A stretch of 64,000 nucleotides of DNA from Isoetes taiwanensis (lineage: Eukaryota; Streptophyta; Lycopodiopsida; Isoetales; Isoetaceae). Below the pieces are notes generated by a model. It worked only from the letters and a program-made list of their open reading frames with translations. It was not told the origin of the DNA and did not search any database. The stretch is taken from positions 5,522,698 through 5,586,697 of the forward strand of contig JAJEKV010000051.1 in assembly GCA_021234155.1 (NCBI GenBank). Reading direction: 5' to 3'. Within the stretch, counting starts at the first letter, position 1. Each line of letters opens with the position of its first letter. Shown piece after piece: positions 6,121 through 63,060 of the stretch. The translations under genes and the position numbers were made by a program.

Positions 6121-6273
6121 TTCAATCTCTGTTCTTGATTACCTCTGGCAATTTTATGGTTCTTTTACCCATTCAAGTTCTTAGATAGAATTCTTTCAAA
6201 ATCTCATCTCCAATCCGCTTTCCTATCTAGCCTATCCAGCCTCTGACAGCCTTCTCCCTTTTACTCTGCATTT

Positions 6274-9045: not shown

Positions 9046-9079
9046 ATTACCCCAAGGTCATCTCTCCATTATTAACATA

Positions 9080-12000
9080 ATGAAGATTCTCAGTTGGAAT
9101 CTAAGAGGCATAAAAGGCCCTCTAAAAAGGAGAAGAGCCATCTCACAAATTAGAAGCTATGATGCGCATATCATTCTTCTTCAAGAACTTAGACCGCCAA
9201 GCTTTGAGTGTTCTAATCTAGCGTGATCGGATTGGCCCTGGATTTTCCTCTACCTGGATTGAAGCAACTGGGACCTCAGGTGGACTCTGCATTATCTGGA
9301 GACATCTTACTCATATTTCTGTTTTCACAAGCCCATGCAGATCTTGGCAATCAGTAATTCTTAAACATAATGATTCTAGATTTGGTGTGATAAATATTTA
9401 TGCCTCCACAGAATCTAGATCTAGGGCTAACACTTGGCTCACTGTCAACAATCACATTGCATCTAGTGATTGTGACACCTGGATTGTGGCTGGGGACTTT
9501 AATAACACTCCTAACTGGGACTTGAAAATTGGTAAAAATCTGAACATGTCTTCTCCAGAAAGAGCTCAATGGGATCAATTGCTTGACAACCATTTTCTTC
9601 AGCATATCCCATCTTCCACAGCAGCCTACACTTGGTCCAATAAACAAGAAGGGAATAGTAGAGTCTACTGTGCACTTGACAGATTTTACATAAACAATAC
9701 TGACAATGAAGTCTGGAATAATTGCTTGGTACACAGTGACGAATGTACTTCACTTTCTGATCATCAGCCTCAATTTTTTACCACCAATCTTATGCTTTCC
9801 ATCAAGAGACATGGTAACACTCCTTTCAAGTTGAATTGCTCCCTCCTTGACTCTGATTCTTTCTGTCAAGATTTCATTGCCTATTATATCACTCTTCCCA
9901 AAGTCAGATCTACAAATTCCATGAGAACCTTTTATGCTAAAATTAAAAATTCTAAGGCCTGGATTAAACAGTGGTCAAAGAATCATCATAACACCAAGCA
10001 GGAAGAAAAGCAATCCTATCTACAGGAAATGAAGGAGATCAGAATAAATCTGCAACAAGACCCCTTCAACATTGATCTCCATAGGCGAGAGGGAAATCTA
10101 GAAATGGTAATTAAAACTATTGAGGAGCTGGAAGCAAAAGGTGCATCTATCAGATGTAAACTTAAATACTTATCCAATTTGGATCATGGCAATTCAAGAT
10201 TCTTTTACAGAGTGGCTAAGTCTAGGCTCCTGAAAAGTCAACTTATCTCACCAAAGATGAAAATGACAACACTATTACGATCGAAAAGAAATTTCTAATT
10301 TCTTCTGCTCAAACTATGCTAATATTTTCTCTCAACCGAGAGATAGACATATCCAAATTGCAGAAGCTAAATCATTCACTGATTTGATTGAAATCAATGA
10401 CCTTCACAGTAACATTGCTATGAATCCTGCTATTGAGGCTAGTCCAAATGAAGATGAGATTCTCTTCACCCTAAAAAGTTTGGCAAAAGGTAAAAGTCCA
10501 GTCCGGATGGGTCTGCCACCCGAATTTTTCATTACTTTTTGGGAAATCATCAAAGATGACTTTGTGCATATGATCAAAGGATTCGAATTCAAATCACCTA
10601 CATCCTTCTCTATCACCGGCCTCATTACTCTAATTCCTAAGGTGGACAATCCTCGGTCTTTCTCTCGATTGGAGGCCTATTTCTCTTACAAACTCCACCT
10701 ATAAGGTCTCCATGCCAAAATCATAGCTAACAGGTTAAATCTCATCTCCAAAATGTTATCACCTCGAACCAATCGCTTTCCTTCCCAACAGATTCATCCT
10801 AGACAATTACATAGCAGCCATGGAGGGAATGCATTGAATAATCTTAGTAAGCAAAACGTATCTTGCTCAAACTTGACTTCTCAAAGGCTTTTGATACCGT
10901 TAGATGGAACTTTCTAGAATTCTCTTCAAAAGCTTGGGTTCGAAAAAGATCATTAAGCTTATCTTGGGCCTAAATTCTAGATCTCAATCAACTGTTTTGT
11001 TAATGGTTCCCCGCTACTTTTTTCCCTCTAGCTCGAGGTGTGAGACAGGGGATGTCCCCTAGCACCTTATTTATTCTTGGCTGTAAGAGATGTTAACTAG
11101 GGTGATTACCTATCATCAATCTATGGGGAATATTATTGGCCTTAATCTTCCTGACAATTCAACCAAACTGTGCATCCTCCAATATGCAGATGATTCCTTC
11201 AGCTTTCTCAAAAATGACTCCAGCAACATTGCCAATTTCCTTCACATCATTCAAATCTTTGAGCCGCTCGAATTCAACTGAATCTTAACAAATGCACTAT
11301 TATAGGTGAGGTAGACACCAATAACATTTCAGGAATCAAATGCATTAGACCAACTGAGACAACAAATCTGTTAGGCATGCCTCTGTCTCTCAATCCCAGT
11401 CTGAAAGAGTTATGGTCCCCTATAGTTGCAAGAATTAGAAAGAAATTAGGCAATTATGGCAATTGTCTCTCTCTTGCTGGGAGAACAATAATTGCTAATT
11501 CTGTCATTGCTGCCTCCCACATTTATTATTCCTCAGCTCTCTTGGCTCCTAAAGGCATCTACCAACAAATTGAGAGAATTGTAAGAAATTTTATCTGGAA
11601 GAATCACCACATGGTAAACTGGAATACTACCACCAGAAGTAAGAAAGATGGTGGCCTTGGCTGCAAAAACTTGATCCTTCAGGGCTATGCTTTAGCTGGG
11701 AAATACATTTGGAAATCCCTATCCAATCAAAACAATCCAGCCATGATTTTCATCAAACATTGGCTATCTTGTAGCCATCCCAAAGGGCATCCTTCCATCA
11801 GTCATAACTTACACCTCCGGCTTTTCACGACTCTGAAACCTGCACCTAATACTTCTCCTCTCATGAGAAATTTTATTCTGGCCTGGAATAAGGTTCACAA
11901 AATCTTTGACCCATCTGATATTGGGAAGAGCCATTCCAACACAAGTCTATTTTGGAATCCTAACTTTTCCAGAGATAACATTACCCCTCTGGCCATTAAT

Positions 12001-12891
12001 CATCCAAAGATCTATAAAAAATGGATGTCAAATGATATTTTAAATCTTGGTGATCTCTGGGATCACAATAGATGGATCTCCTGGACCAATTTGAAGAATA
12101 AAATTAGGGGCAGCTCTTCTGACAAAATTATTTTTAGATTTATCATGCAAAAAGTTAGAAATGTCAACATTCAGAACAATCCTATCACTGCCCAATGGAC
12201 CCTTTCTGGTAAGCCCAGTTATAATGTTTCCAAGATTTACAATGGCTTAAATAAGCCTCAAGTCCCATCCAAATCTAAGCTCTATTGGGGTCTTTCAGAT
12301 GACACTGAAATCAAATTGTTCCAAAATATCTGGCTCTCATACCTCCCACCCAAGATTTCATACTTTGCATGGCTAATTGCAAATAAGAGTGTGTCATGCT
12401 TGGAAGCTATGTCAAGGCACTACAATTCAGCAACAAATTCTTTAACAAATTCAAATCCCTCCCCGCCTCTTGGTTGCAGTCATATAGAATCTATGGAGCA
12501 TATATTTGGCTGTGTTAAACTTAACACCTTTTGGACATGGTTTGAAGAGACCTTTCATATAAATTGCCCTGCTACTTTGCTTGAATTTTTGATGAATGAT
12601 GATGCATTTAAGAATTCTTTATGCTGTATTGCTTTATGGAATGTCTGGAAGCATAGAAATAGATGCCAATATGGAGGGAAACAAATATCTATATTCTGGA
12701 TTAAATCTCAGGTTATATATGACATTGAGATGGTTGCAACCAGTCAAAAACACCTGCACAAAGATGACGTGGATACAAATTGGTTAAACATAGGCCAATT
12801 CATGGGAGCTCATAAACTGTTTAAACTAAATTGTCATGATTCACTTACTAACATTCATTGTATTTCTGCTAGATTACATGAGGAGTCTTAG
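9080..12891 (+). pseudogene. LINE ORF2 pseudogene: endonuclease, reverse transcriptase, zf-RVT
   Basis: The start reads MKILSWNLRGIKGPLKRR, the L1 endonuclease opening with N-L-R-G. ILLQELRPP follows, then a frameshift near 9220. The frame at 9387-10298 carries VAGDFNNTP and SLSDHQP, the D-x-N and S-D-H catalytic motifs. Reverse transcriptase starts near 10480 (GKSPVRMGLPPEFF) and is badly eroded at 10700-11080. The catalytic box LQYADD is legible at about 11190. The last open block (11377-12891, 504 residues) covers the thumb/connection (SLAGRTIIANSVI, NFIWKN) and the C-terminal zf-RVT region (PPKISYFAWL, HIESMEHIFGCV). At least four frame breaks make it non-functional. Confidence 0.88.
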
Positions 12892-15364: not shown

Positions 15365-15369
15365 CAATT

Positions 15370-16952
15370 TGTGACGCTCCCTGAATATATATGACCCCCG
15401 GTCGTATACATACGGGGAATTTTACCCTCCCATGGCGACCATCTCGCCACGAGCAGGGCCCTCCATCTAACCCGGGCCGTCTACGAAGAGACGCTCAGGT
15501 GAAGGACACGGAGGGGTCATTCGGCCCACGCCTTCGATGGGCCCTACGTCGCGGAAGCATGAATACAAGGTTAGCATACACATAAATCACATATAAATAA
15601 CCACCACGAGGGGTGGCACATCCATCCAAATACCAACGGCAAAGAATATGCATCTAAGCTAAGAAAACACCCCAAACCCAGGTTCTACCCCTGCTGCACT
15701 CTAGTGAGGAGCGTCGACTACTGGGTCTCGGGAGATCAGCCAGGGCCAGAAGTCTTGGCATGGCGCTTAGGCTGGCATAGAACGGCGGCTAGGGTTGTCC
15801 ACTCCATCCGCCCCTCACATTACACTTTGCAGATGGGTCGATTCACGCTATGGCTTCGCTATAGCCTTCCTGAGACGTAGACTCTAGGGTATCACCCTTT
15901 GAGCCTACTCCGTGTTCATGACACTGTCCGATGAGGCAGGTCTGGGGAAGCGCCCCTTCCGGGATCACAAATGGTTCCATGGGTGAGCTAGAGAACGCTG
16001 TCAGCGTCGGCCACCCCCCACATCCGTACCCAACTTACTCACCTAAATCTACTCAAAGTGCATGGTGCCCCATACGGGTCACACCACCGCACCCGTGGAG
16101 TGTCGGACCCATACCCGACCCTCCACGTGGCCCGCCATCGGGCCCTAGCCCATCAGGAGTCTCAGGAGCCTTTTATGCTCATGCAAGACCCCACCCCCTA
16201 CTTCCCCACTGTGTCCCTTGTCTGGTGCTAAGCCAGACCATAGCGTCTATGACCCGGTGGGTTCTTGTGCACAGGCCGAAACTAGTAGGGTGTTAACGGA
16301 AGTACTAGGAGCATTCTATACCCAAGCTCAGAGGCCTCTACCCCCCTTTTAATCTCTGTTTACTGGAATTACTAAACTAACTCATAGAGACATCGACCAT
16401 CCCATAACAGAGCATCATTCATAATTGAAAAGTATTCCTAATTACCAAAGAAGGGTTAATCTCAACCAAAACTAGCCAGAAACGAATACTAGAGTATTAT
16501 TCTACAATTTGCAAGTTAAACTACCACTAACCAGAGTTTCGACTGGACCCGTTGTCAAGGGGTGCTTCCATAGTGCTGTACTGGGGTAGCAGCGACAGGT
16601 AGAGGGTGTCTTGGCGATTGGAAGATGTTCAGCAACTGTGCTCTGAGCGCTTAGCTGCTCCTTGGTGCTGGCTGGGTCGAAATTGGGGTTAAGATGGGGG
16701 TGGCGCTGCCTTTGGTGGCTCAGTTTAGAAACCCCCATGCTGGCCACTCAGGTTATGCCAAATGGCGCCTTCCCACCATTAGGTGACTTAATAGCAAGTA
16801 TTAGATAATTATCCTTTATAGTTAATTTAACATAGCTAATTAAATCCATTGTGGCCAACCCCCTAGGTTATCATACCTCAGGTGGCGTATCCATACCGAG
16901 TGACGTGTCAATATATTTATACGTACACCGTATAAATACTTGGAACGTCACA
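15370..16952 (-). repeat. 3' LTR of the chromovirus (1583 bp)
   Basis: It matches 26673-28239. The inner half (about 16380-16952) is almost identical to its partner by eye. The outer part (about 15680-16320) differs by many clustered substitutions and small indels. The terminus on the minus strand is TGTGACGTTCCAAG with a TATTTATA box about 15 bp in. The other end, next to CAATT, is CGTCACA. Confidence 0.95.
16502..16747 (-). CDS. LTR-borne small ORF (81 residues), duplicated in both LTRs
   Basis: An 81-residue frame starting MASMGVSKLSHQRQRHP is open in this LTR, and its twin is open at 27789-28034 with only a few replacements. No domain is recognised. LTR sequences are duplicated by mechanism, so keeping both frames open is weak evidence for coding. 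The region is near-identical between LTRs anyway. It may be chance. Confidence 0.2.
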   Translation of the reverse strand: MASMGVSKLSHQRQRHPHLNPNFDPASTKEQLSAQSTVAEHLPIAKTPSTCRCYPSTALWKHPLTTGPVETLVSGSLTCKL

Positions 16953-16967
16953 TTCTCCCCTCCTTAG
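16953..16967 (-). promoter_or_regulatory. Polypurine tract next to the 3' LTR
   Basis: On the element's strand the sequence directly before the 3' LTR reads CTAAGGAGGGGAGAA. A purine run at this position primes plus-strand DNA synthesis in LTR retrotransposons. Confidence 0.8.
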
Positions 16968-17582: not shown

Positions 17583-17786
17583 TCAAGCTTCTAAGCTTAC
17601 CGCCCAATCTATGGGTTGATAGCATCGTTGATGGTGCGGCCTTGAGACTTCGCGCATGAAATCCGGATAATGCTTGTCAAGGTCTATCTTCATCACCCAC
17701 GTAGCATCCTCAACCGGTAAGTGTTTCCACTTAACCAAGTATTGCAACATTTGAGTCCTTCGGTTTTGTTTATGCAGCTCGATCAA
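17583..17786 (-). pseudogene. Integrase C-terminal chromodomain (displaced frame)
   Basis: The frame reads RTQMLQYLVKWKHLPVEDATW followed by an acidic segment and HYPDF. This is the chromodomain core (YLVKWKxLPxxxATWE) found at the C-terminus of chromovirus integrases. The aromatic cage positions Y and W/W are legible. It lies just after, and in a different frame from, the integrase ORF, so a frameshift separates them. In other chromoviruses this domain directs integration to chromatin marked on histone H3. Its co-occurrence with an H3-fold ORF in the same element is notable. Confidence 0.8.
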
Positions 17787-17801
17787 GAAGAGCTTGGGGC
17801 A

Positions 17802-19328
17802 CTATTTCGAAGTTGCTCTTACGTCATTTCTAGGAGGATTGGGGTATCCAAAACCTCCTCTCGGATCGTGGGTGTGTTGCTTGGAAGACTCACGTGAAAG
17901 ACCTTGTGGATCTTCAAGCGTATGCGGCAATTCTAAGCGATATGCCTGCTCTCCAATGCGCTCAATAATCTTGAATGGTCCAGCCCATCTGGGGGCCAAC
18001 TTTTTACAGTTGCCAATCTTAAGCTTGGCTTGCTTCACTTTAATCTTAAGCCAAACTGATTCGCCCACCTGGAAAACGAGTGGGGTTCTGTGCTTATCGG
18101 CTACACTCTTCTGGCGGCTTCGTGCGGCCAACAAATACCCACGAACTTCTTCGACCAGAGCTTGCATCTCCAGGAGGAGTTTTTGAGAAACCTCTACCTT
18201 AGAAACGGGGTTATGCCAAGTGTCTGGAGTAAGACATTGGTAACCATAGTTTATCATAAAGGGAGACATTTTGGAAGACTCCTGTTTCATGCTATTATAG
18301 GCAAACTCGACCAGATAAATATAGTCAGCCCATTGTGATTGCTTACTCCACACATAACTTCTTAGCATATCGTCTATAATGCGATTGGTACGTTCTGTCT
18401 GACCGTCTGTTTGAGGATGATATGTTGTACTCATAGCAAGCTTGGTCTGAATGGTGGTAAAGAAATCTTTCCAGAATGCACTTACAAATTTGGGATCCAT
18501 GGTTATCACTTCCCATTTGGCGTTGGGCACATCTAGAGGTTGCAACTCACCTGGGATTCTTAACTGTTCAGCTTTAGTTTGCTGGCATACTTGACACTGC
18601 CGGATGTATCTGGCAATGTCCTTCTTCATAGAAGGCCAGAAATAGCTGGAGCGAATTTTAAAGTAGGTTTTCATAAAACCGGCGTGTCCAGCTATAGGGC
18701 TATTGTGTGTGTCATGAAGAATAAGCTTCCGTACTCCTGAAGTCTCCGGCACACACAACTTATCCTTGTGATATAATAAGTTGCCCTCTTTCTTATATGC
18801 ATGAAAAGCCTCACGCTCTGTATCCGTGCGAGCTTCCTTAGCCAAACTATCCCAAATGTCACAAAACTCCGGATATGTGGGCAAGGTCTGCTCTATCTGT
18901 TTCCCAAACTCACTGGTGAGCGTAGAAATGGCATTACAATGGGTTCGGGTTACCAAGGGATGGCGTGACAATGCATCCGCAATCACATTGTGCTTGCCAG
19001 GCTTATACATAATCTCGAAATCATACTCCTCCAAGAATTCCATCCATCTTCTTTGTCGGAGATTGAGATTTGGCTGGGTGGATAGATAACGGAGACTTTG
19101 ATGATCCGTATCCAACTGGAATCTTCTACCAAGAAGGTAGTGTCTCCATATCCGTAGGGCACGGACAACGGCCAACAATTCCTGATCATGGGTAGGATAT
19201 CGCTGCTCGGTTTCATTCATTTTCTTTGAGTCGTAGGCAATAACCCTCCCCTCCTGTATTAGGACTCCCCCGGTGGCAATCTTGCTGGCATCCGTCGCCA
19301 CCAGTTTATCCTGGTCAGGATCGGGCAA
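17802..19328 (-). pseudogene. RNase H and integrase region, with the integrase core deleted
   Basis: The 508-residue frame opens with RNase H (VATDASKIATGGVLIQ, then TDHQSLRYL and DALSRHP). The integrase zinc-binding HHCC follows (LHDTHNSPIAGHAG ... CQVCQ). Near 18495 the reading jumps from KWEVITMD directly to PKFVSAFWKDFF. In related elements about 60 residues of the catalytic core, including the first two acidic residues of the D-D-35-E triad, lie between these, so they are lost in frame. The remainder has TTYHPQTDGQTERTNR and a GPF module (PRWAGPFKIIERIGEQAYRL). The deleted core means no active integrase. Confidence 0.88.
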
Positions 19329-19364
19329 TGTGAGAACTGGTGCTGATGTTAAGGCATCCTTAAG

Positions 19365-20165
19365 CTACTGGAAACTTTCCTGAACTTTTGTCTTCCAGTG
19401 CTCCATCCAATCTTTCACCTTCTCTTGCTTTGTGAGATTTGTAAGAGGGGCTGCAATCTTTGCAAAATCCTTTACAAATTTTTGATAATATCCTGCTAAT
19501 CCCAAGAAACTCCGGACTTCGGAAACATTCCCTGGAATAGGCCATTCTCTTACGGCCTCTATCTTTGCGGGGTCTGTAGCAATTCCCTCTGCCGAAATGA
19601 TATGGCCCAAATAATCGACCTTCGGAGTGGCAAACTTGCACTTAGAGAACTTAGCATAGAGCTGATGACGCCTTAGCTTTTGTAGGGCCAATTTAAGATG
19701 TTTCTCATGCTCCTCGAGGGTCTTACTATAGATGAGAATGTCGTCGAAGAAAATAACAACAAAATCATCCAAGTATTGTCGGAAGACATCATTCATTAGT
19801 CGCATGAACGTTGCTGGGGCATTAGTTAATCCAAAAGGCATAACTGTAAATTCATAATGCCCATACCTAGTGCGAAAAGCGGATTTATGGATGTCCTCCT
19901 CTTTGATCCTTATCTGATGGTATCCGGAGCATAGATCAATCTTTGAGAAATACTTAGCCCCTTGCAACTGATCCATTAGGTCATCGGCTCGAGGCAAAGC
20001 ATAGCGATTCTTGATGGTATGCTTGTTGAGTTGCCGATAATCAATACACATCCTCAGCGAGCCGTCCTTTTTCTTAACGAAGAGAATAGGAGCGCCAAAA
20101 GGCGAAACGCTAGGTCGGATGAAACCTAGGTTTAGTAGCTCCTGAAGTTGCTTCTGCTTAAGTTC
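19365..20165 (-). pseudogene. Gypsy reverse transcriptase
   Basis: Clear Ty3/gypsy [22 protein letters not shown] (upstream, by translation), [55 protein letters not shown]. The catalytic box is FFDDILIYS, and [13 protein letters not shown] and [15 protein letters not shown] follow. The DD pair is intact. The frame is broken at both ends: a stop precedes RT near 20170-20360, and the RT/RNase H junction is at about 19340. Individual motifs are preserved, so inactivation looks fairly recent. Confidence 0.9.
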
Positions 20166-20365
20166 CCTGCCAATTACGAGGACTCATGCGGTGCACGGGC
20201 CTTGGCCGGGCGGGCTTGGTACCGGCTCTAAAGCTATTTCACATTCCACCGCTCTAAAAGGAGGAAGCTTCTGAATCTCATCTGGGAAAAGGTCACCAAA
20301 TTCCCGGAGAAGATGAGCAATCCCTCCGCAAGGTATCGATTATTTGCTTCGCTTAGCATCCGACT

Positions 20366-20752: not shown

Positions 20753-21736
20753 TTATGTGTACTTCCGATCCATAAGAATTACAAAAGGCTTACTGTCTAC
20801 TTGACCTATTGTGGAAATGACAGCAGGCTGACTTTCGGCATTGCCGGTTTCTATAGCTGCAAGGATATGAGACGCACCGTGAATATACTCGGGAGCCTCG
20901 TCTTCGACAGGTAAGGTCGACTCCAGATCGTCCCAATCGAGGTCGGCCATGGCCAGCTGGGCAGTCTGCGTAACATAAGGACAATTGTGCATAAAGTGCC
21001 CGGGCCGCATACACCTGTAGCATGCCTTATCCCGGCGGAGCTGTTCTCGGGCCTCTTTAGGAATCGACTGTAAGAGGTTCCGTATTTCCTTACCGACATT
21101 GCTCTGTTTATCCGCCGTGGTGAAGGTAACTTTCTTTTCCTGGCGGCCATAGGAATTCTGCGGAGAGGGGCCCGGGCTTGGCGACCGGGGTTTGTATGGT
21201 GTGGATGGACGGGGCTGCGAGTAAGGAGCAGGACGCGGATACTGGTTCCTTGGTGTGTCCTCCTCGAGGCTCAATGCTTTAGCCTCAGCCTCCGCAACTG
21301 ATTTCGGGTCTATAGCCTTAACCATCCGTTTGATTGATGGGGCCAACCCTTCAATATAGCCCTCTACGGCTCTCTTTTCATTCATACCTGGTACATACAG
21401 CCTCAGGCGCATAAATTCATCAGTGTAAGCCTGAACGGACATACCCTTCTGCTCCAACCTATAAAAGGTCTGAATTTGCTGGCACTTGTGCGCACGAGGC
21501 ACATAATGCGACTTGAATGCTTTGGCAAACTTCCTGAAGTTGCATCTGCTCCTGTCTAGGTGCTTGGCCCTGGCATAGCCCTTCCACCAAATACGGGCAG
21601 CCCCTGTAAGGTTGGTGGTGGCAACCTTTCCTGTATCTTTCTCCGTCATGCCATAGGACTTCCCAAACTCCTTCATTTCGTCCAACCAGGACTCTGCATT
21701 CAGTCCGCCTCTGGATTTCCCATCAAACTGGGCCAA
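20753..21736 (-). pseudogene. Gag capsid and nucleocapsid
   Basis: The frame (327 residues) has the retrotransposon gag pattern GGLNAESWLDEMKEFGKSYG, LTGAARIWWKGYA, FRKFAKAFKSHYVP and QIQTFYRLEQKGMSVQAYTDEF. A Pro/Ser/Arg-rich linker follows, then a zinc knuckle CYRCMRPGHFMHNC (C-x2-C-x4-H-x4-C). There is no ATG at the apparent start; the frame opens on TTG and continues upstream. About 40 extra bases around 21740-21780 interrupt the natural join to the N-terminal gag frame (21760-22188), so gag is split in this copy. Confidence 0.88.
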
Positions 21737-21759: not shown

Positions 21760-22188
21760 TTATATAGCTGTATCAACCGTCTTACGGTATTCCTTATCCC
21801 GGCGCTTTGCATGGTCACCAGTTGATACCGATGAACCAGAAGACCCCGAAGTGGTTGAGCGTGAGGAAGTGGCACTATCCTTAGAGGAACTTCGGTGACG
21901 CTTAGCATGAGGCCTCCTCGGTGCAGGTACAGGACTGGCTCCAGGGGGAGATGGCTGTTGTGTAGGTGGACTCGGTGGTAGCGGAGGTAACTCCGGTCCA
22001 TCTTCCTGGGTTGGCTGCGGTGGGTTGGCATGCAACACATAGGCTTGTAACTCGCCTAGCTGCCTTTTCATTAACATCAGTTCCTGTTCGGGTGTGAGTC
22101 TACTGGCATTTGAAGGCGTCTGCCAGGCGGCGTTACGTGCACCGTCTAAATCGAGCATGAAAATGGTATAAGCATACTTATAACACAT
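21760..22188 (-). pseudogene. Gag N-terminal region, separated by a frame break
   Basis: A 142-residue frame. The likely start is the internal ATG giving MLDLDGARNAAW. A short helical segment (TPEQELMLMKRQLGELQAYV) is followed by Pro-rich and Ser-rich stretches and ends EYRKTVDTAI. Its position directly before gag and the helix plus disordered linker fit a gag N-terminus. The terminal residues appear to be caused by the ~40-base insertion that disconnects it from the capsid frame. Confidence 0.55.
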
Positions 22189-23084: not shown

Positions 23085-24485
23085 TTAAGAACTAGGTCCT
23101 CCCTCTTCATTTGTAGGCCTAGGAGGTGGTGGTGGCGGTCGGTGTCGCAGCAGAGTCACCCCGGGGTCTATTGTGGCAGCCGCAATAGATGCAACCTCTG
23201 GTGGATAAGCAACAGCCAATGGGGCTGCCGTAAGGAGCTTCATGCTCATCCAGGGTGCAATATCTTGGCCCAAGGCCGTTAGGGCAAGATCCCGCCGCAC
23301 GAGTACATAAGTAAACGTACGATAGGGGAGCTTCTTGTGCCCGGCCAATGTGGAGAGAGCACGAAGGGTCCACCATGAAGCTTCAGCCTCCGGCCCTAAA
23401 TCTCGGGCTATGAAAAGAACTTGCCCCTGTCGAAAGGCTGATAGGAAGAAACGGGTAAGGTGGTTGCCCAATACCTTCCCTTGCGGGGTCTCTGATGTGG
23501 CCACCTCCTTATCCAGATCCATGGGAACCTCTTCGTCCTTAAGTTCTTGCTGCTCCTCCTTCAAATGAGCAGGATTGTGGTATAAATCCTCTCCCTCGTC
23601 ATCTGAACCGGAGGGAACCTCAACCATATTAATATTTGGGACATGAGGTCCCATAGCCGTGAAGGCATCTGGTGAGGGCTGAGAGGGCGGCTCCTGCATC
23701 ACCAAGTCCCGAAGCCGTAGCAATGTCTCGGCGGGTTCTATAGTCTCTTGGCGGAACTGGAGCAGCTGCTGCACCTCCGGAGGAAGCTCAATAGAAGTGA
23801 AGTCGATGAAATCGTCCATACAATACTCCGCAAGCTCATAAAGCACATGGTCTTTTCGCTTGCGCCTAAATCCAGCCACCATGTGATAGGTCCAGATAAT
23901 ATCCTCCAAGAGAAGATATTCTTGCCCTTGGTGATAAATAACTGGAAGGGCATCCAGCCCTGACAAGCCTACAGTTTGCTCACGGCGCGGTGGCAGCTCT
24001 TCCGCCAGCTGCTTCCAATGGGCGAAGTCGCCCATGCCTATGTGTTCGTCTTCCCCCTCCTCGGAAGACTCAGGCAGTTTGCCTTTCTCTACAGGCAAGG
24101 TTTCATCCTCGACGTATTGGTCCATGAGGATGGCTAGGGCGAAGGCAACCTCAAGATACTGCCGCCCCTGATGCTGCACAACGGGCAGGTGTTTGCCCCA
24201 TCGGAGCTTCCCCTTCAGCACATCATATGCATGGGTGTCTCCCCCTAGCATCTCCCAGACTACCTCCCGCTCCAGATACAGTTGGGGAGGATCCCCAAGA
24301 GGAATACACAGAGGGAGCATCTCCTCCATGTAGAAGTCTAGAAATCCGGCATAATCTGGATGCCGCTGCATGTTGGAAATGAGATCTAGGCGCTGGCATA
24401 GCAAGGGCCGCAGCTGGTCGAAGGCCACTTGCGGATCCCAGTGCTCTCCGTCTTCGTACCATGCAAGCAAGTCGGTGGCTGCCAT
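23085..24485 (-). CDS. Second extra ORF (466 residues), unknown function
   Basis: The frame is intact from MAATDLLAWYEDGEHW to a Pro-rich tail (HRPPPPPPRPTNEEGG). It is acidic and helix-rich. An internal repeat is visible: LPVVQHQGRQYLEVAFAL near residue 100 and LPVIYHQGQEYLLLEDIIW near residue 180 share LPV(V/I)xHQGxxYL. An acidic disordered stretch occupies about 280-330. I recognise no known domain: it is not gag, not a transmembrane envelope (no signal peptide or membrane segment seen), and not a nuclease. It lies about 215 bp after the H3-fold ORF on the same strand. An intact 1.4-kb frame in an element whose pol is broken hints at past selection on it. Confidence 0.65.
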   Translation of the reverse strand: MAATDLLAWYEDGEHWDPQVAFDQLRPLLCQRLDLISNMQRHPDYAGFLDFYMEEMLPLCIPLGDPPQLYLEREVVWEMLGGDTHAYDVLKGKLRWGKHLPVVQHQGRQYLEVAFALAILMDQYVEDETLPVEKGKLPESSEEGEDEHIGMGDFAHWKQLAEELPPRREQTVGLSGLDALPVIYHQGQEYLLLEDIIWTYHMVAGFRRKRKDHVLYELAEYCMDDFIDFTSIELPPEVQQLLQFRQETIEPAETLLRLRDLVMQEPPSQPSPDAFTAMGPHVPNINMVEVPSGSDDEGEDLYHNPAHLKEEQQELKDEEVPMDLDKEVATSETPQGKVLGNHLTRFFLSAFRQGQVLFIARDLGPEAEASWWTLRALSTLAGHKKLPYRTFTYVLVRRDLALTALGQDIAPWMSMKLLTAAPLAVAYPPEVASIAAATIDPGVTLLRHRPPPPPPRPTNEEGGPSS

Positions 24486-24700: not shown

Positions 24701-25915
24701 CTAAGGACGCTCCCCCCGAATCCTGCGGGCGAGGGCTAAATCCTTTGGCATAATGGTGACTCTCTTTGCGTGGATCGTGCAAAGGTTAGCGTCACCAAAA
24801 AGTGCCAAAATAGCAAAGGTCTGGAAACGGAGATCGGTTTTGAACTCCTGCGCGATCTCCCGTACCAGCCTCTGGAAGGGAAGCTTCCGTATCAGAAGTT
24901 GGGTTGACTTCTGAAATTTACGGATCTCCCGTAAGGCAACAGTGCCGGGGCGGAACCTGTGAGGCTTCCTCTGTGGGGCAGGTTTTGTGGGCGGCCCCTT
25001 CGGTACTGGCACTGTCTTGGCCCCAACAACTGGTTGGGAGTCATCCACCCGCTGGTGTCTCCGACTGGAGCTGGTATTCTTGCCAAAAGCTCCGACAGTC
25101 TTTAATTTCTCCTTGTATTGACTGCCGGATTTTCGGGCCACGGCCTTCTTACGGTGCTTAATGGTCGTGTGCTCGGTGGGTATTGGTCCCGACCCACTCC
25201 CTGATCCCCCTCCGTCCTGCGGGTTCAGCTGGTCCTGCCGAGCCCTCTCCTCCTGTTCAAGCCTCTCCCGTTCCTCCCGGGCTCTCCTCAAATCTTCTTG
25301 AACCTGAGCGAAATGTTGTGCTGCGCTTCGACGAAGAAGTTCAGCATGGTACCGCTGAGGCCGCTGACTCATATCAATCTGGATCGTCGTTAGGTAATCC
25401 AGGCTGATATCAGGGATCGGGGCTCCCCACATGAAGCTCTGGGAAGCTTCATGCCATTCATACGGGGGAACCTCAATTGCCCTGCCATCTATGACGGCAA
25501 GCCCGTCCCCTAAATACCGGTACTCCCTTCCCCGAGCCGCCGTATCCGCTCGCTCAATCTCCCGATGATCATCTTTCTTAGCCAAGCCTCTGATGCGATC
25601 GGCCTCTGTCCTGATGTCCTCCTCCTCGGTATGGCCCTCTTGTTCAGGAGGATAGAACTTGATCAGCATCATGACCATGTCATGTTGCTCGACGATGGTA
25701 TAAGAAAGCTGGCAAAGGTTCAGCCGGATCAGGAATGGCTCCGAGAAATGGTAGATAGGATAGGGGATCCTATCGTTATTCTCAAACCGGTTCACCAACT
25801 CATCCAAAAGGATGTCGATGAAAGCCGGGTCTGTAGCCATGTACCAGGCGATCATGGCATAAATCTTCACTATGCTTAGGGTAGAAGGGTCCGGGGCGCT
25901 CTTGGTATTGGCCAT
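24701..25915 (-). CDS. Histone H3-fold ORF carried by the chromovirus (404 residues)
   Basis: The best start is ATG at 25915, giving [13 protein letters not shown]; an in-frame ATG 30 codons earlier exists. Residues about 1-130 form a helical domain unknown to me ([27 protein letters not shown]). A charged coiled-coil-like segment follows ([15 protein letters not shown]), then a basic Ser/Lys-rich linker. The last ~85 residues are histone H3: [63 protein letters not shown] and [10 protein letters not shown] at the very C-terminus. Helix alpha-N, alpha-1 and alpha-3 regions are nearly canonical; 11 residues (H3 93-103) are missing from alpha-2. It is of canonical H3, not CENH3, character. The frame is open. 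Function is unknown; a chromatin-mimicry or nucleosome-interaction role is inference. Confidence 0.93.
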
Positions 25916-26658: not shown

Positions 26659-26670
26659 GGCTCGATACCA
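26659..26670 (-). promoter_or_regulatory. Primer-binding site (initiator tRNA-Met type)
   Basis: Two bases after the 5' LTR end the element's strand reads TGGTATCGAGCC. This matches the common plant TGGTATCAGAGCC, complementary to the 3' end of initiator tRNA-Met, with one base missing. It confirms element orientation. Confidence 0.8.
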
Positions 26671-26672
26671 CT

Positions 26673-28239
26673 TGTGGCGCCCCCGAATATATAATGACCC
26701 CGGTCATATACATACGGGACTTTCCCCCCATGGCGACCATCTCATACGGCGGGCCCTCCATCTAACCCGAGCCGTCTACGAAGAGACGCTCAGGTGAAGG
26801 ACACGGAGGGGTCATTCGGCCCACGCTTTCGATGGGCGCCTACGTCGCGGAAGCATGAATACAAGGTTAGCATACACATAAATCACATATAAATAACCAC
26901 CACGAGGGGTGGCACATCCATCCAAGTACCAACGGCAAAGAATATGCATCTAAGCTAAGAAAACACCCCAAACCCAGGTTCTACCCCGGTTCAGACTCTA
27001 GTGAGGAGCGACTGACGGCTGGGTCTCAGGAGATCAGCCAGACCGAAGTCTTGGCATGGCGCTATCGGCATAGAACGCCGGCTAGGGTTGTCCACTCCAT
27101 CCCCCCCTCCAGTGCACACTTTGCGATGGGTCGATTCACGCTTATGGCTTCGCTATAGCCTCCCGACGAGACTCTAGGTATCACCCTTTGAGCCTACTCC
27201 AGGTTCATGACACCTGGTCCGATGAGGCAGGTCGGGGAAGCGTCCCTTTCCAGGATCACAGTGGTTCCATGGGTGAGCTAGAGAACGCGTGCCGCATCAG
27301 CGACCCCCGCATCCGTACCCAACTTACTCACCCTAAATCTACTCAAAGTGCATGGTGCCCCATACGGGTCACACCACTGCACCCAGGGAGTGTCGGACTC
27401 CATACCCCCCCTCCACGTGACCGCTATCGCCTAGCCCCATCAGGAGTCTCGTGAGCCTTTTATGCTCATGCAAGACCCCACCCCTACTTCCCCACTGTCC
27501 CCTTGTCGGTGCTAAGCCGCACCATAGCGCCTATGACCCGGGGGTTCTTGTGCACAAAGCCGAAAACTAGTAGGGTGTTAACGGAAGTACTAGGAGCATT
27601 CTATACCCAAGCTCGGGGGAGGCCTCTACCCCCTTTTAACCCCTCAAGCATCGAACTACTAAACTAACTCATAGAGACATCGACCATCCCATAACAGAGC
27701 ATCATTCATAATTGAAAAGTATTCCTAATTACCAAAGAAGGGTTAATCTCAACCAAAACTAGCCAGAAAAGAATACTAGAGTATTATTCTACAATTTGCA
27801 AGTTAAACTACCACTAACCAGAGTTTCGGCTGGACCCGTTGTCAAGGGGTGCTTCCATAGTGCTGTACTGGGGTAGCAGCAACAGGTAGAGGGTGTCTTG
27901 GCGATTGGAAGATGTTCAACAACTGTGCTCTGAGCGCTTAGCTGCTCCTTGGTGCTGGCTGGGTCGAAATTGGGGTTAAGATGGGGGTGGCGCTGCCTTT
28001 GGTGGCTCAGTTTAGAAACCCCCATGCTGGCCACTCAGGTTATGCCAAATGGCGCCTTCCCACCATTAGGTGACTTAATAGCAAGTATTAGATAATTATC
28101 CTTTATAGTTAATTTAACATAGCTAATTAAATCCATTGTGGCCAACCCCCTAGGTTATCATACCTCAGGTGGCGTATCCATACCGAGTGACGTGTCAATA
28201 TATTTATACGTACACCGTATAAATACTTGGAACGTCACA
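26673..28239 (-). repeat. 5' LTR of the chromovirus (1567 bp)
   Basis: Partner of 15370-16952. Starts (element strand) TGTGACGTTCCAAG and ends GCGCCACA. It is followed on the outside by the target duplication CAATT at 28240-28244. The 81-residue ORF of the other LTR is repeated at 27789-28034. Confidence 0.95.
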
Positions 28240-28355
28240 CAATTGATCCCTTCAGTGCCCACGTCCCATTTTCTGTGTTGATGTTTTCTGATTTGCACAA
28301 ACAGAAAATACTATACAAGCATACAGATATTTTCTTTTATTTGATTTGGTTTCAG

Positions 28356-29270: not shown

Positions 29271-30073
29271 TGATATGGAGCATGCTAGGGGGAGTGGTCC
29301 AACACTAAGGGATTAAGGCAATGGGCATAGGAATACCTAAGGTTACAAGAAATGACTAATCAAAAGGGGCAAGATATTAGGCCATATTCAACTATTGAAG
29401 CCAAAGTATAGGGGGAAAATACTTTATTCAAAAGTAAAGTAGAACGAAAGCAACTATTTTTATAAAAGGGGAGGCGAGCTGGCGGAGATCAGAATCGTGT
29501 GTGAATCTGGTTAAAAGGGGAAGCAGAAAAATAGTCTCGACTTCTTTGAAGATTCATGCAAACACAAGTAGCCGAAAAGGAAAAAGATAGATATGTATAT
29601 AGAAGAGAGCATCCGGCCACTTACAGAAAGGAACAACCCATGCGGCAGAGATCCGGCAGTTAACCTTTGCTCTTTGTTGTTGCCACTTCCAGGCTTGCTA
29701 GAACCAAGACCCCATCAAAGTCCTTCTTCCATTATCCGGCTGGAGTTCCTTCTGTGGAAGACAGGGAGGGAATCTAATCTCATTTCCGGCTGCCCTAAGC
29801 TTACTGGTGCTTGTAATCAGTGTGTATTGAGGTCACTGGCTTAAGGATAATTAAGCTAAGACTGAAATCCGTTAACTCTTGCCCTTGGAAATTGCCTTAG
29901 TGTTGGATCCGGTTGGGTGGAAACTGGATGCTCCATACCCGGTTGTGGAAACCATGCTTAATTGCTTTTGAGAAAGGTTGTTATAAGACTCTATGAATTA
30001 TCTCCTCTGTTTCTATCTGTTTAATTGTTGAACAAGTGGGTAATATTCTTCAAAAAAACCTTAAACCATATCA
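29271..30073 (+). repeat. Left LTR of the gag-only element (803 bp)
   Basis: TGATATGG...CCATATCA. An 83-residue frame at 29593-29844 is also open and identical in the other LTR (32047-32298); this is expected from LTR duplication and not by itself evidence of coding. Confidence 0.93.
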
Positions 30074-30110
30074 AGTGGTATCAGAGCGAGCCGATCCTCA
30101 TACCTGATCA

Positions 30111-31307
30111 ATGGCTCAACGCTTCAATGTTACTGAAGCACAGTACCAGCAAGCCTTGTCTAATGCCAGCTATATTGCATCCCAGTTAGCATTGCCTACG
30201 CCTAGCAGTCAGCAAGAGCATGACAGGCAAGTGGAATTGCTGTCTATTCTGTATCGCTTCCTTCCTGATATTTATCTGCAACCCTCGCAACCTCCTTTGC
30301 CTAATGGACCTCCACCAGTAACTCCTCCACCGCCACCTAAGCTGAGAAAGTGGTTAGAGAAAGCAGACATGCCGTCTTTCAAAGGGGGAAAGACAAAGCC
30401 TGTCAAGGTCGTCAGTTTCATCAGTCAGTGGGAAAAGTTCTTTGAATGTGTGCAGGCAACAGATGTGGAAAGACTGCAAGCCATGGACACCTATCTAAAA
30501 GATCAAGCCCAAGCATGGTGGCAAGGCAGACGAGAATGTGATCCCAGAATCAGTAATTGGGAAAGTTTCAAAACGACATTTGAAGCACATTATTTACCCT
30601 CTAACTATTACAGTGAGTTACGCAGGGAATGAGATCGTGTGAAACAGGGGAAAACTGAGAGTAGTCAGTCCTACACTTTCAAATCCACTCATTTAGCGGC
30701 ACTAATAAGGAATCTGGATGGGAAAGAGCTTCTGAGAAAATATGTCAGCGGATGTAGAGACGATATCTATGCAGAGATGGAAATATTTCATCCTAAAGAC
30801 TTAGATGAAGCTATAAAATTAGCATCCGCAGTGGAGTGGAAAATAGATCCAAAATCTAGGAAATTTGATTTTTAGGATGAAGACACTTCAGATCAAGAAG
30901 ACAAAAAGAGTAGCAAAGAGAAGAATGGAAGCAAGGAATCTTCCAGAAATTTCAAGAGGAAGAGAAATAACGGCAATGGTAATGGTTCCGAAAGGAAGCG
31001 AGAAGAAGAAAGTCAAAGTAGAGCGCGGAAGGAAACTAAGGAACCAAAGGGAGGCTGCTATAGATGCAGGGGAAAACATTACTTAAGGGATTGTCCGTTT
31101 GGAGAAGGGGGGATCACAAAGGTTGAGACACCTAAACCTCAAAGGGGTGTACAAATGCATGCTATTGAAGGTCCCAAACCGGAGGATATACCTGAGACCT
31201 CTAAAGCTGCTGATGAGTGGAAGAAAGGTGTCAGCTTCCAAGATGAGGAACGGGCAAAGGCTAATGCCAAAGATCGAAGGTGGCTCCAAATGGGAACTCT
31301 GGGGTAA
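30111..31307 (+). pseudogene. Gag polyprotein of the gag-only element, with two in-frame stops
   Basis: A single frame of 398 codons from ATG at 30111 to TAA at 31305-31307. TGA at 30630-30632 and TAG at 30873-30875 interrupt it. Features in order: Pro-rich linker (PPPVTPPPPPKLRKW); capsid-like helices with FISQWEKFFECVQ, QAQAWWQGRR and WESFKTTFEAHYLP; then LRKYVSGC; a basic Lys/Arg-rich region; and a zinc knuckle CYRCRGKHYLRDC, which is C-x2-C-x3-H-x4-C, one residue short of the usual spacing. Similar gags occur in plant Ty3/gypsy elements. Translation would stop after 173 residues unless the stops are suppressed. Confidence 0.85.
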
Positions 31308-31470
31308 AATAGCAAAATTTACATCACTTAGGATAAGATTTGTGAGATTTGATTTGTATGTTTTTCGTGTGGAATGAAATTAAACTATTATGCAAGCATG
31401 GTGCATTAAATGTAAATTTTGAAGAATGGTAATTGTAGTTGTAGCAATAGGCCTGACAAAATTTACAATA

Positions 31471-31575
31471 GTATCGCGGAGATACAATGATTGGGTATCG
31501 AGGAGATACTGTATCATGCAGATACAATCAAGTGGTACCGCGGAGGTACAAGGATATATCGTACTGCGGAAGTAC
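31471..31575 (+). repeat. Array of five 15-nt hairpins with covarying stems
   Basis: Five perfect 5-bp stems with 5-nt loops are seen at 31471-31485, 31495-31509, 31511-31525, 31535-31549 and 31561-31575. Stems are GTATC/GATAC (three times), GTACC/GGTAC and GTACT/AGTAC; the changed stems are compensated on both sides. Loops are GCGGA, GAGGA, ATGCA, GCGGA, GCGGA. Spacing is 16-26 nt. Two further short palindromes (GATATATC and GGATATCC) lie within the same stretch. The array sits between gag and the 3' LTR. Base-pair conservation suggests RNA structure, but a repeat-generating mechanism at DNA level is possible. Confidence 0.85.
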
Positions 31576-31726
31576 GCGGATATCCATAACTATTTCTTAA
31601 GTTTGCAGGATTAAGAAACCCTTCGATGCAATTTGATTTGGACGCAATTATCTTGAGAAGGGATGGACCCATCTCAGGTGCATTCGAAAGATCGCGGACG
31701 ATCTTCTTTTTAAGAAGGGATGGAAC

Positions 31727-32527
31727 TGATATGGAGCATGCTAGGGGGAGTGGTCCAACACTAAGGGATTAAGGCAATGGGCATAGGAATACCTAAGGTT
31801 ACAAGAAATGACTAATCAAAAGGGGCAAGATATTAGGCCATATTCAACTATTGAAGCCAAAGTATATGGGGAAAATACTTTATTTAAAAGTAAAGTAGAA
31901 GGAAAGCAACTATTTTTATAAAAGGGGAGACGAGCTGACGGAGATCAGAATCGTGTGAATCTGATTAAAAGGGGAAGCAGAAAAATAGTCTCGACTTCTT
32001 TGAAGATTCATGCAAACACAAGTAGCCGAAAAGGAAAAAGATAGATATGTATATAGAAGAGAGCATCCGGCCACTTACAGAAAGGAACAACCCATGCGGC
32101 AGAGATCCGGCAGTTAACCTTTGCTCTTTGTTGTTGCCACTTCCAGGCTTGCTAGAACCAAGACCCCATCAAAGTCCTTCTTCCATTATCCGGCTGGAGT
32201 TCCTTCTGTGGAAGACAGGGAGGGAATCTAATCTCATTTCCGGCTGCCCTAAGCTTACTGGTGCTTGTAATCAGTGTGTATTGAGGTCACTGGCTTAAGG
32301 AGAATTAAGCTAAGACTGAAATCCGTTAACTCTTGCCCTTGGAAATTGCCTTAACGTTGGATCCGGTTGGGTAGAAACTGGATGCTCCATACCCGGTTGT
32401 GGAAACCATGCTTAATTGCTTTTGAGAAATGTTGTTATAAGACTTTATAAATTATCTCCTTTGTTTCTATCTGTTTAATTGTTGAACAAGTGGGTAATAT
32501 TCTTCAAAAAAACCTTAAACCATATCA
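31727..32527 (+). repeat. Right LTR of the gag-only element (801 bp)
   Basis: Near-identical to 29271-30073, with the 5-bp target duplication ATGTT immediately after it. Confidence 0.93.
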
Positions 32528-32695: not shown

Positions 32696-32746
32696 GTAAG
32701 TTATTTTTCCATTTCAAAGTATTAGGTATGTGAATGTTCATCCTTC

Positions 32747-33412
32747 TTGGAAAGTCAAAGATGGTGTTCTGTTCAAGTTGTTGACGCGTTGGCACTGTCT
32801 AGAGCAAAAGGTTGTCCTACTTTATTTATCACTATGATTACAAATACAGATTGGCCAGAAATAAAGGCCACTCTTAGGCCTGGACAAAATGCATCTGATG
32901 TTCCTATGTTTGTCGTCCAGTATTTTCATGGAAGACTACAAAAATTAAAGGAACTTCTTCATAAGTTTTTCCAGTATATATCATATGTAATAACCATCAT
33001 AGAATTTCAAAAGCGCAGATTGCCACACGCTCACATCGTCTTGCGGACTGAACCTGATATACCTTTTGAATGCATTGATGAAATTATCTCTGCCAAATTG
33101 CCCGCGGATCCAATCCTTCGAGGGCAAGTTCATAAATTCATGATACATAGACATACGCAGAGATGCTCCCCAAATGGCGCGGCCTGTTGTTACAAATATC
33201 CAAAGGATGTCAACTCGACGATGCATCTCGATTCAAAAGGTTATATTCTGTACAGAAGAAGAAGTATAGATGATGTATGGGTGGTGCCATACAATCCCTT
33301 CTTGCTACATGAATTGGATTGCCATATTATGGTGGATGTGGCATCTACAGTACACGTATTTTCTTATCTTTATGCTTATATCTACAAAGGATTCGACAGT
33401 GCCAATTTTTGA
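32747..33412 (+). pseudogene. Helitron Rep (HUH) domain fragment
   Basis: A 221-residue frame. GCPTLFITMITNTDWPEIKA is the Helitron Rep opening. IIEFQKRRLPHAHIVLRTE carries the H-x-H of the HUH nickase. The segment ends at YLYAYIYKGFD, the two-tyrosine site that attacks DNA (family form YLYKYIYKG). The catalytic residues are thus present. It is truncated at both ends relative to a Helitron polypeptide and cut off from the helicase by frameshifts. Confidence 0.85.
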
Positions 33413-33719
33413 GTTACTTAAGAAAGACATGCATCCTGCATACCATCATCATTGAGTAACCAATATGGAGAAACTACAGAGAGTTCATTCAGTAACAGTG
33501 ATGCAAGACAGCATGGCACAGGTCAACTATCTGCGAGGGAGAATACAATGAGTCAGTCAATAGAGAACATGTCGTCTGAACAAGCACCTGGAAGACGTCC
33601 CAGAGACGAAATACAGGACATATTTATCAGCAACAGAAGCAGCGTGGAGGACAATGTCCTATGATATAACTAATAAGTCTTCTGCAGTTAAATGCCTACC
33701 ATCACATCTACCAATGTCG

Positions 33720-34143
33720 AGCACACGATCATTGTTGGACCGGTACTTTTTGCGTCCTCTAGATCCTGGATTTGATGCTTTCATATACATTCAGTACTAT
33801 GAATAACACACATTCATCACATTTAGTTCTGCATTAAGAGTCGAGCCTGGAAACTATACAGAACAAGAACGAGAGGGATTCTCGACGAACATGCAGCCAA
33901 TCGTGTGTAGAATACGATTACTATTGCCTCGAGTCGGTGAAGCATTTTATCTTAGACAAATATTGCTTCATCGCGCTGCAAGAACTTGGGATGAACTAAA
34001 AATTGTCAATGGTAAACATTATGAGACATATCAGCAAGCTGCAGAGACGGGAGGGTTGCACGTAGCGCACAACGAAGCGTTACAAGTAATGGAAGAGGCA
34101 GTTTCATTATCATTAGGACCGACACAACTGCGGTTTTTCTTTT
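33720..34143 (+). pseudogene. Helitron linker region between Rep and helicase
   Basis: In broken frames one reads RIRLLLPRVGEAFYLRQILLH, TWDELKIVNGKHYETYQQAA and GPTQLRFFF. These correspond to the conserved stretch FYLRxLL..., SFEDLRTVNGxxYxTFKEAA and P.QLR.LF between the Rep and helicase domains. Stops occur at 33805 and between segments. Confidence 0.75.
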
Positions 34144-34146
34144 GCC

Positions 34147-34653
34147 ATGCGTCTACTTGACCAAGGTCCAACAATTGAGCGATGGACTAGGTTTCAAACT
34201 CCGATGAGTGTCGACCTCCTAGATGAATATCCAAACGATGAGACAGTTGCTTTCAATGAATCCCTTCATTTGGTCAATAACATTCTAACACAATATAATA
34301 CTAACATCACGGCATTCGGTCTCCAACTGCGGCCTCATCTTGGAAGAGATGTCATGCATGAGTTGCAAAAATTTTCCAATCATTGGACATACTTGGACGC
34401 TATGATGCAAATGACGAATGTTATGAAAAAGGACCAACAGGAGATATATACCTTTATTCAACAATGGTTGGAATTACAACAAAGCAACCAACCTATATTC
34501 ATTGATGGAAAAGCTGGCAGAGGAAAAACATTCCTGCTAAATTGTGTATGTCTATTTATGCGGGGCAACCCAAGTATAGTATTTCTATGCGGTACAACAG
34601 CATTAGCAGGTCGCCAATATCCAGGAGGCGCTATTCCAAATTCCCGTGAATGA
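34147..34653 (+). pseudogene. Helitron helicase N-terminal part with Walker A
   Basis: A 168-residue frame with FNESLHLVNNIL, KKDQQEIYTFI and the Walker A box IDGKAGRGKTFLLN of Pif1-family helicases. GTTALAGRQYPGG follows, where Helitrons have A..YPGG and then a TAHSTF motif. After PGG the frame is lost; the next frame reads LFQIPVNEN, the following Helitron motif. The next helicase motifs are not here but appear inverted at 36119-36755. Confidence 0.85.
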
Positions 34654-38395: not shown

Positions 38396-38467
38396 GGTTC
38401 TATGGTGTAGTGGTTAGCACTCTGGACTTTGAATCCAGCGACCTGGGTTCGAATCCCGGTAGGACCT
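38396..38467 (+). tRNA. tRNA-Gln (anticodon UUG)
   Basis: A complete cloverleaf can be folded. The acceptor stem GGTTCTA pairs with TAGGACC (one G-T wobble). The D arm is TGGTGTAGTGGTTAGCA, the anticodon arm CTGGA-CTTTGAA-TCCAG with TTG, and the T arm CCTGGG-TTCGAAT-CCCGG. Internal pol III A and B boxes (TGGTGTAGTGG and GGTTCGAATCC) are present. A TTTT terminator follows at 38469-38472. No intron. The CCA end is not encoded, as expected for a nuclear gene. It matches the plant nuclear tRNA-Gln(UUG) sequence I know. Confidence 0.95.
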
Positions 38468-62662: not shown

Positions 62663-63060
62663 TTTGTTAGCTGCTAATTCCGCCTCCTAATCCTAGACCG
62701 ACCCTAATTATTATGTCCAAAAAACAGCTGCACCAAACCTGTTATTAATAAGAAAAAACCCAGGTTTTCAGCAGAATCTGAAGGCCCATAATAGCAGTCT
62801 ATCAAATCGAAATACAGTAATGTCCATCTCCTCATTATAGGTATTTCTCAAATAACCTTTTAAAATACCTAATCCAAAGCATAAAGGGATGCAGCGAGAG
62901 GGGATAAAACTGTGGTCGCCGACGCCCAAAACACTGAAGACGAAAACCTAATCATCCACGACCAGCGTCAGATAGATAGATATCCGAGGACACGTGCACC
63001 GTACAATAAAATGCTTATTTTTTCAGCGCGATCTTGAATTATAGTCACAAAGAAGCTTAA
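62663..63060. promoter_or_regulatory. 5' UTR and proximal promoter of the XS-type gene
   Basis: The sequence upstream (higher coordinates) of the ATG is AT-rich with no long frame. No clear TATA box could be fixed. It ends at the GTTAA-rich repeat block. Confidence 0.35.

Follow-up and report, generated by a model that had tools for sequence, protein, structure and literature searches.

A histone H3-core gene under purifying selection in a Ty3/gypsy chromovirus family of Isoetes taiwanensis

Virus-encoded histones are known, such as the histone doublets of the Marseilleviridae and the H4 of bracoviruses. The element described here likewise is a mobile genome encoding a core histone fold, but the Marseilleviridae and bracoviruses are DNA viruses, whereas this is a retrotransposon in which H3 and an element-specific domain form a single fusion protein. 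Among plant mobile elements, its closest described counterparts are the Ty3/gypsy chromoviruses (REXdb CRM, Reina, Tekay, Galadriel, Tcn1 and Chlamyvir), which as described in PMC6317226 have the same LTRs, 5-bp target duplication, gag, reverse transcriptase (RT), RNase H, integrase end and chromodomain. In contrast to these, the H3 element has ~3.7 kb, from the start of ORF1 to the N-terminal part of gag, that hold the H3-bearing ORF1, ORF2 and ORF3, and its primer binding site is presumably of the tRNA type, unlike that of most Tcn1 elements as described in the same source. Extra genes as such are not without precedent. In plant LTR elements with aORFs, sense ORFs upstream of gag-pol are one known arrangement, as in the H3 element, although reported aORFs are mostly located between pol and the 3' LTR (PMC7264820, as far as consulted). 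The gypsy elements of Phalaenopsis also carry an extra host-derived ORF that was kept through several replication rounds, but theirs is an AlkB-type 2-ODD demethylase domain, whereas here it is a histone core (PMC9289625). The screen of 121 angiosperm genomes in that work names PMD, G-patch, AIR1, 2-ODD and other extra domains, and no histone is among those named in the consulted text, its supplementary chart aside. The word histone is absent from the consulted main texts of PMC7264820 and PMC6431247, and its one mention in the consulted text of PMC6317226 concerns chromodomain ligands. No retrotransposon with a histone gene was found in the literature searched, a body of work that has most subscription journals outside its scope.

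The window, a 64-kb stretch of the I. taiwanensis genome, contains a Ty3/gypsy chromovirus of 12,870 bp on the minus strand, running from 28239 to 15370 (Table 1). Along the element, the 5' LTR and the primer binding site-like motif are followed by a leader, ORF1, ORF2, ORF3, gag, RT, RNase H, the integrase ends, the chromodomain, the purine tract and the 3' LTR; the sequence gag, RT, RNase H, H2C2 and SH3-like end is the Ty3/gypsy order. The motif TGGTATCGAGCC resembles what we take to be an initiator-methionine tRNA primer binding site. The first-pass annotation had placed ORF1 within the LTRs, on the element's strand and between target duplications, and this is borne out by an LTR pair of 92% identity and by CAATT at both element ends. 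A chromodomain (PF00385, E = 2.3e-8, above the cut-off) lies after the integrase in a broken frame, and since gag, RT and the chromodomain are all on the strand of ORF1, the term chromovirus in that annotation is correct. Both gag and pol of the window copy are interrupted by frame breaks or stops, and the domain search gave no match to the integrase core domain in this copy. ORF2 of the window copy has no Pfam match above the cut-off, and ORF1 and ORF2 have no similarity to each other.

Table 1. Features of the H3-bearing element, in their order along the element, with positions in the window
Feature	Position	Strand	Basis
Target site duplication CAATT, 5' side of element	28240..28244	.	sequence
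5' LTR, 1,567 bp	26673..28239	-	LTR comparison
Primer binding site-like TGGTATCGAGCC, just internal to 5' LTR	26659..26670	-	motif
ORF1, 404 codons: N-domain, long helix (likely coiled coil), Gly/Ser linker, basic segment, H3 core	24701..25915	-	
Histone H3 core of ORF1, H3 numbering 37-135, without 11 alpha-2 residues in the window copy	24704..24967	-	
ORF2, 466 codons, orphan accessory gene	23085..24485	-	dN/dS 0.092 (15 copies)
ORF3, 110 codons	22406..22738	-	no family match
gag N-terminal part, assigned by position, different frame from remaining gag	21760..22188	-	
gag: Retrotrans_gag, Ty3_capsid, weak CCHC	20753..21736	-	Pfam
Reverse transcriptase	19365..20183	-	domain match
RNase H, integrase H2C2 zinc finger, SH3-like end	17802..19364	-	domain match
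Chromodomain piece downstream of frame break	17586..17801	-	PF00385
Purine-rich tract adjoining 3' LTR; polypurine tract inferred by position	16953..16965	-	
3' LTR, 1,583 bp	15370..16952	-	LTR comparison
Target site duplication CAATT, 3' side of element	15365..15369	.	sequence

The LTR pair is itself a mosaic. Its first 300 alignment columns are identical, columns ~600 to 1350 are only 80-89% identical with indels, the next 150 reach 98% and the last 95 fall to 74%. An exchange between subfamilies, by gene conversion or template switching, or a poorly sequenced stretch would explain this pattern better than uniform ageing would.

ORF1 opens with an ATG at 25915, and its stop codon ends at 24701; given the base composition, the chance of an open frame of 404 codons is ~3e-8. 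Its C-terminus matches the Pfam Histone family (PF00125, E = 3.4e-27) and solved H3 chains (best E = 1.4e-40), in agreement with the earlier reading of a 404-residue frame that ends in core H3. The part upstream of H3 consists of an N-domain, a long helix, a Gly/Ser linker and a basic segment. The helix, which is the sole confident part of a single-sequence structure model of the N-part, is likely a coiled coil. For the N-domain there was no confident relative in Pfam, PDB or the protein database: its best match, a class I tRNA-synthetase model hit by 6 of 34 members, has E = 0.0063, and the one PDB chain reached has E = 0.51, both sub-threshold. In the protein database, neither the first 310 residues of ORF1 nor the element's gag frame had a match, and scans of viral contigs likewise yielded none. 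With full ORF1 as the query, 120 proteins were among the matches listed, each covering 21-36% of the query, a stretch that amounts to the histone part and at most some linker; the seven that were inspected all have repeated H3 units.

In the window copy the H3 core is damaged. Eleven alpha-2 residues are missing, 93-103 or equally well 91-101, and 75 of the 88 remaining positions are identical to canonical H3. AlphaFold2 modelled this H3 part with a pLDDT of 48 and a broken alpha-2, in an uncontrolled run on a 20-row alignment of closely similar H3s, and the window copy is probably non-functional because its H3 part models poorly. A selection test on conservative replacements in this copy only was weak (p = 0.03), and the multi-copy dN/dS is preferred. 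The gap is unique among the 90 fetched copies, and its absence from all the others rules out an adaptive shortening; L020, L024, L046, L050 and L064 lose the same alpha-2 stretch, but via frame breaks.

A search of the I. taiwanensis genome alone (1.66 Gb, 1,110 contigs) returned at least 97 matches to ORF1, the window included, at 77-100% identity. These are the best 97 of 10,402 first-look candidates and represent a lower bound; 90 of the 97 were fetched and analysed. Of the 90 fetched copies, 70 retain 98 or more of the 99 H3-core codons and have no stop among them, and 56 are also stop-free from the ATG position to the end of ORF1. Copy L004 gives a gapless 98-residue match to an H3 chain (E = 1.6e-53), with alpha-1, alpha-2 and alpha-3 at full length. 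The surroundings are kept as well: where 1.5-kb flanks were included (30 loci), ORF1 is preceded by LTR DNA in 29 (the exception is L017), the leader is found in all 30, and all 30 have an ORF2 match downstream (37 residues only in L029), while gag and RT follow in order in both of the two further copies that were read. The genome contains 137 instances of an exact 20-mer of the family H3 DNA (reversed control, 0), and 40 of the 90 fetched copies have this 20-mer, from which we would guess that the first subfamily numbers ~300 copies. The copies are spread over many contigs, and the copying was fairly recent, since the two most similar of the 90 copies share 98.9% identity across ORF1.

Viewed from RT, a listed ORF1 or H3 match lies upstream on the same strand for 35 of 142 RT matches (the best 142 of 33,235 candidates), against 2 in a control on the wrong side or strand. 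The ORF1 start is 5.3-6.3 kb upstream of RT and H3 mostly 4.7-6.1 kb, with three nearer. Among the matches listed, 107 of 142 RT matches are without an upstream ORF1 or H3. Three such sites were read: at L099 an ORF1 with H3 is present in divergent, broken form, and L097 and L098 have none within the 2 kb read. Given these 107 matches and two empty sites out of three, the H3 gene may not be present throughout the RT family, and RT relatives without H3 may exist.

Selection on ORF1 was estimated by the Nei-Gojobori method in 44 intact copies, each with at least 95 H3-core codons. The dN/dS was 0.046 for the H3 core (99 codons; dN 0.022, dS 0.48), 0.108 for the N-domain (243 codons) and 0.223 for the basic segment (68 codons); the 26 in-frame codons before the ATG, an imperfect built-in control, gave 0.60 and not 1. 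With damaged copies added (83 copies, at least 85 core codons), the value for the core was 0.039. Replacement and silent changes were also mapped on a tree of 87 copies. For the H3 core, with a neutral site ratio of ~3.1, the counts were 22:303 on internal and 143:422 on terminal branches (Fisher p = 5e-13), and for the N-domain 377:920 and 761:1248 (p = 2e-7). Internal and terminal branches were alike in the basic segment (p = 0.78, same tree), and the pre-ATG control gave 167:85 and 264:102 (p = 0.13). Among the tested parts of ORF1, constraint is strongest on the H3 core. For ORF2, dN/dS was 0.092 in 15 copies, namely 18 loci with a match starting at residue 1 minus three with at least two stops. 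ORF1 and ORF2 look like working element genes because both are under purifying selection, and the data show ORF1 to be a selected accessory gene of a large, diverse chromovirus family.

These results bear on the simplest alternative, a one-off transduction in which host H3 DNA is passively carried without function. The first-pass annotation expected, in that case, that no other copy would carry the frame and that the H3 segment would decay neutrally. The window copy is indeed damaged; however, at least 97 copies and a second subfamily exist, the H3 part has a dN/dS of 0.046 between the 44 intact copies, and its silent divergence from host H3 is saturated, the opposite of that expectation. A passive transduction is hardly credible and is ruled out by copy number and by selection on the H3 core. 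That an H3-fold frame is a stable gene in a Ty3/gypsy family, as the same annotation had suggested, is strongly supported by the many copies at the same place and the strong purifying selection; further elements with the frame in that position were found in a kept context of LTR, leader and ORF2.

The host itself has 15 canonical full-length H3 genes among the matches listed (the best 150 of 9,022 candidates). Next come 135 other H3-like matches, for which the score drops from 270 bits to at most 188; 42 of them sit within the 97 listed ORF1 matches. Such H3-like element copies could mislead automatic histone annotation of the I. taiwanensis genome. The four host genes that were fetched have Y41, E77 and L90, compared with F41, D77 and A90 in the angiosperm H3.1 examined; in the element, L90 is typical, position 41 is Y or F and position 77 is E or Q, so that L90 and E77 occur in both host and element H3. 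Between 80 element cores and the four host genes, pN was 0.117 and pS 0.94, and silent sites are thus saturated. From this saturation, and from the presence of Y41, E77 and L90 in the host and in many copies, we infer that the capture was old and that its source was an H3 of the host's lineage. Both a source H3 in the host and selection across copies (dN/dS 0.046), as looked for in a captured host gene, are found.

The second subfamily, family B, was reached via the RT copy L099. It has at least 150 matches (the best 150 of 2,635 candidates), with an open frame of at least 400 residues in 59 of the 150. Six of its loci were fetched; in L101, L103 and L105 the frame stays open through H3, and L100 is the same broken copy as L099. 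The N part of family B is 30% identical to that of the first subfamily (score 312, against a maximum of 69 in 300 shuffles), and the H3 cores are identical at 81-85 of 99 positions in nine comparisons. F87, A107 and L124 are common to both subfamilies and unlike host H3, as is I89 in two of three family-B copies. Since a subfamily so divergent shares derived H3 residues, a single ancient H3 capture that predates the split is likely, being the simplest account. In the search with the family-B N-domain, matches went down to 58% identity among the matches listed, which suggests a superfamily larger than the two subfamilies analysed.

What was kept and what was lost of H3 differ sharply. The native tail, residues 1-36 with K4, K9, K14, K27 and K36, is absent from ORF1 and, compared with canonical H3.1 and H3.3, has been replaced. 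The replacing segment has no significant likeness to the H3 tail in the window copy (shuffle p = 0.34) or in three family-B copies (p = 0.24, 0.23 and 0.35), and its ARKS-like motif varies, being ARKS in 45, ARKT in 13 and AHKA, AHKS or AHKT in 25 of the 90 copies. Mimicry of the H3 tail by this segment is therefore rejected for lack of significant likeness in these copies and of a kept ARKS. The first-pass annotation had also suggested that the protein might imitate H3 to host chromatin readers or recruit the element's own chromodomain. Because the modifiable tail is lost and the ARKS-like motif varies, these two suggestions are unsupported, and the earlier interpretation holds only in part: a stable H3 gene of the family stands, while imitation and chromodomain recruitment find no support.

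The core, on the other hand, remains close to canonical plant H3.1 and H3.3, and positions 37-135 of three family-A copies are identical to one host H3 at 84-88 of 99 positions. Thirteen of the 99 positions (54, 59, 77, 86, 87, 89, 102, 105, 107, 124, 125, 134 and 135) have a family-typical residue that neither plant H3.1 nor H3.3 has there; among them, E77 is the host H3's own residue. T86, F87, A102, G105, A107 and L124 are common to all 83 compared copies, and F54, I89, A125 and P135 occur in nearly all of them. Family-typical residues equal plant H3 throughout loop 1 (78-84), 108-123 and 126-133. Alpha-2 is the most conserved helix of the family core (0.99), and G102A and E105G are fixed within it; these two changes could weaken rather than keep the pairing with H4.

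Taken together, the sequence evidence leads us to favour, with some confidence, a reading in which the captured H3 core pairs with H4 and anchors an element protein to chromatin. A host H3 sequence would have been captured once, long ago, and fused onto the C-terminus of an element protein, its core then coming under stronger selection than the other tested parts of ORF1. A core so kept would presumably still do the jobs of an H3 core, namely H4 pairing, chaperone handling and DNA contact. It would pair with H4, find at least partial acceptance by the host's H3-H4 chaperones, and be deposited on DNA in nucleosomes or H3-H4-like complexes, where it would anchor the N-domain and any bound element particle or complex to chromatin. 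Chromatin with ORF1 H3 would be without the K4, K9, K27 and K36 tail sites of host silencing. The conserved fold fits H4 binding or nucleosome entry, both of which had been proposed at first pass. Also in favour of this reading, residues 87-90 fall at the binding region of H3.3-specific chaperones (PMC4510971, PMC3342937). The absence of the H3 tail, which is needed in most known H3 signalling, counts against a chromatin anchor. A related possibility, which we hold to be doubtful, is that the protein serves as the element's own nucleosomal H3 variant, replacing host H3 on element DNA while the N-domain tethers element machinery; the element's chromatin would then resist silencing because it has no K9/K27 tail.

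Packaging inside the particle and titration of chaperones are the main rivals to the chromatin anchor. Histone folds bind nucleic acid, and the H3 core could work within the particle in a nucleocapsid-like, basic compaction of DNA or RNA, possibly with H4, and not in host chromatin. This established binding, the position of ORF1 upstream of gag and the strongly positive net charge of the window copy (+14 in the basic segment, +13 in the H3 core) are in its favour. However, charge alone needs no core up to 88/99 identical to host H3, alpha-2 is the most conserved helix, and the basic segment is the less constrained part (0.223), which makes such a role unlikely in our view.

The second of these rivals sees ORF1 as a decoy that titrates H4 or the chaperones ASF1, CAF-1 and HIRA, such that new element DNA escapes histone deposition. 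Residues 120-123, 126-131 and C110, which we take to be the ASF1-facing side of H3, are unchanged in the family-typical core, and this fits normal deposition equally well. The retention of the core while the tail was lost, and changes at 86, 87 and 89 within or beside a chaperone-specificity patch, would suit a decoy. Positions 87 and 90 are described as essential in Arabidopsis H3 (PMC3342937), and for animal H3.3, UBN1 and DAXX are described as binding around residue 90, with UBN1 contacting 87 and 89 (PMC4510971); the altered 86-89 patch thus touches positions that, in the consulted parts of these two papers, decide the handling of H3 variants. A decoy would, however, require high expression, and we consider it improbable.

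CENH3 has a diverged core and a longer loop 1. A CENH3-like fusion that, with the chromodomain, steers integration to a centromere or other chromatin compartment was also considered. The element does contain a chromodomain, and chromodomains are described as targeting integration (PMC9289625). The core, however, is that of canonical H3 and not CENH3, with 84-88 of 99 positions identical to host H3 in three copies and without a loop-1 insertion, and the copies lie on many contigs. CENH3 identity is ruled out by the canonical core and the absent insertion, and targeting of this kind is very unlikely.

In nearly all models of genome silencing, retrotransposons are the target and histones carry the mark. 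The H3 element reverses these roles, in that it supplies a chromatin component of its own, a conserved H3 core. With such a family, it becomes directly testable whether a histone variant provided by a mobile element can serve to escape silencing or direct integration. In addition, the family offers many natural, selected H3-core sequences without the H3 tail.

Several other features were observed in the window. A short element at 29271-32000 has direct repeats of ~280 bp at its ends and a gag-like ORF (30108-30629) between them; its 2.2-kb interior seems too short for pol. Helitron remains, with Helitron_like_N and a piece of PIF1 helicase, lie on the plus strand at 32726-34650. At 6247-12888 there is a LINE-like element with a long first ORF that weakly matches DUF4283, an endonuclease-like frame recognised by eye and a zf-RVT piece below the cut-off. 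The 433-codon open frame on the minus strand at 61388-62686 has no Pfam match and by eye resembles a host-gene exon. A tRNA-Gln (TTG) gene at 38396-38467 is the sole RNA family match at the gathering threshold in the window.
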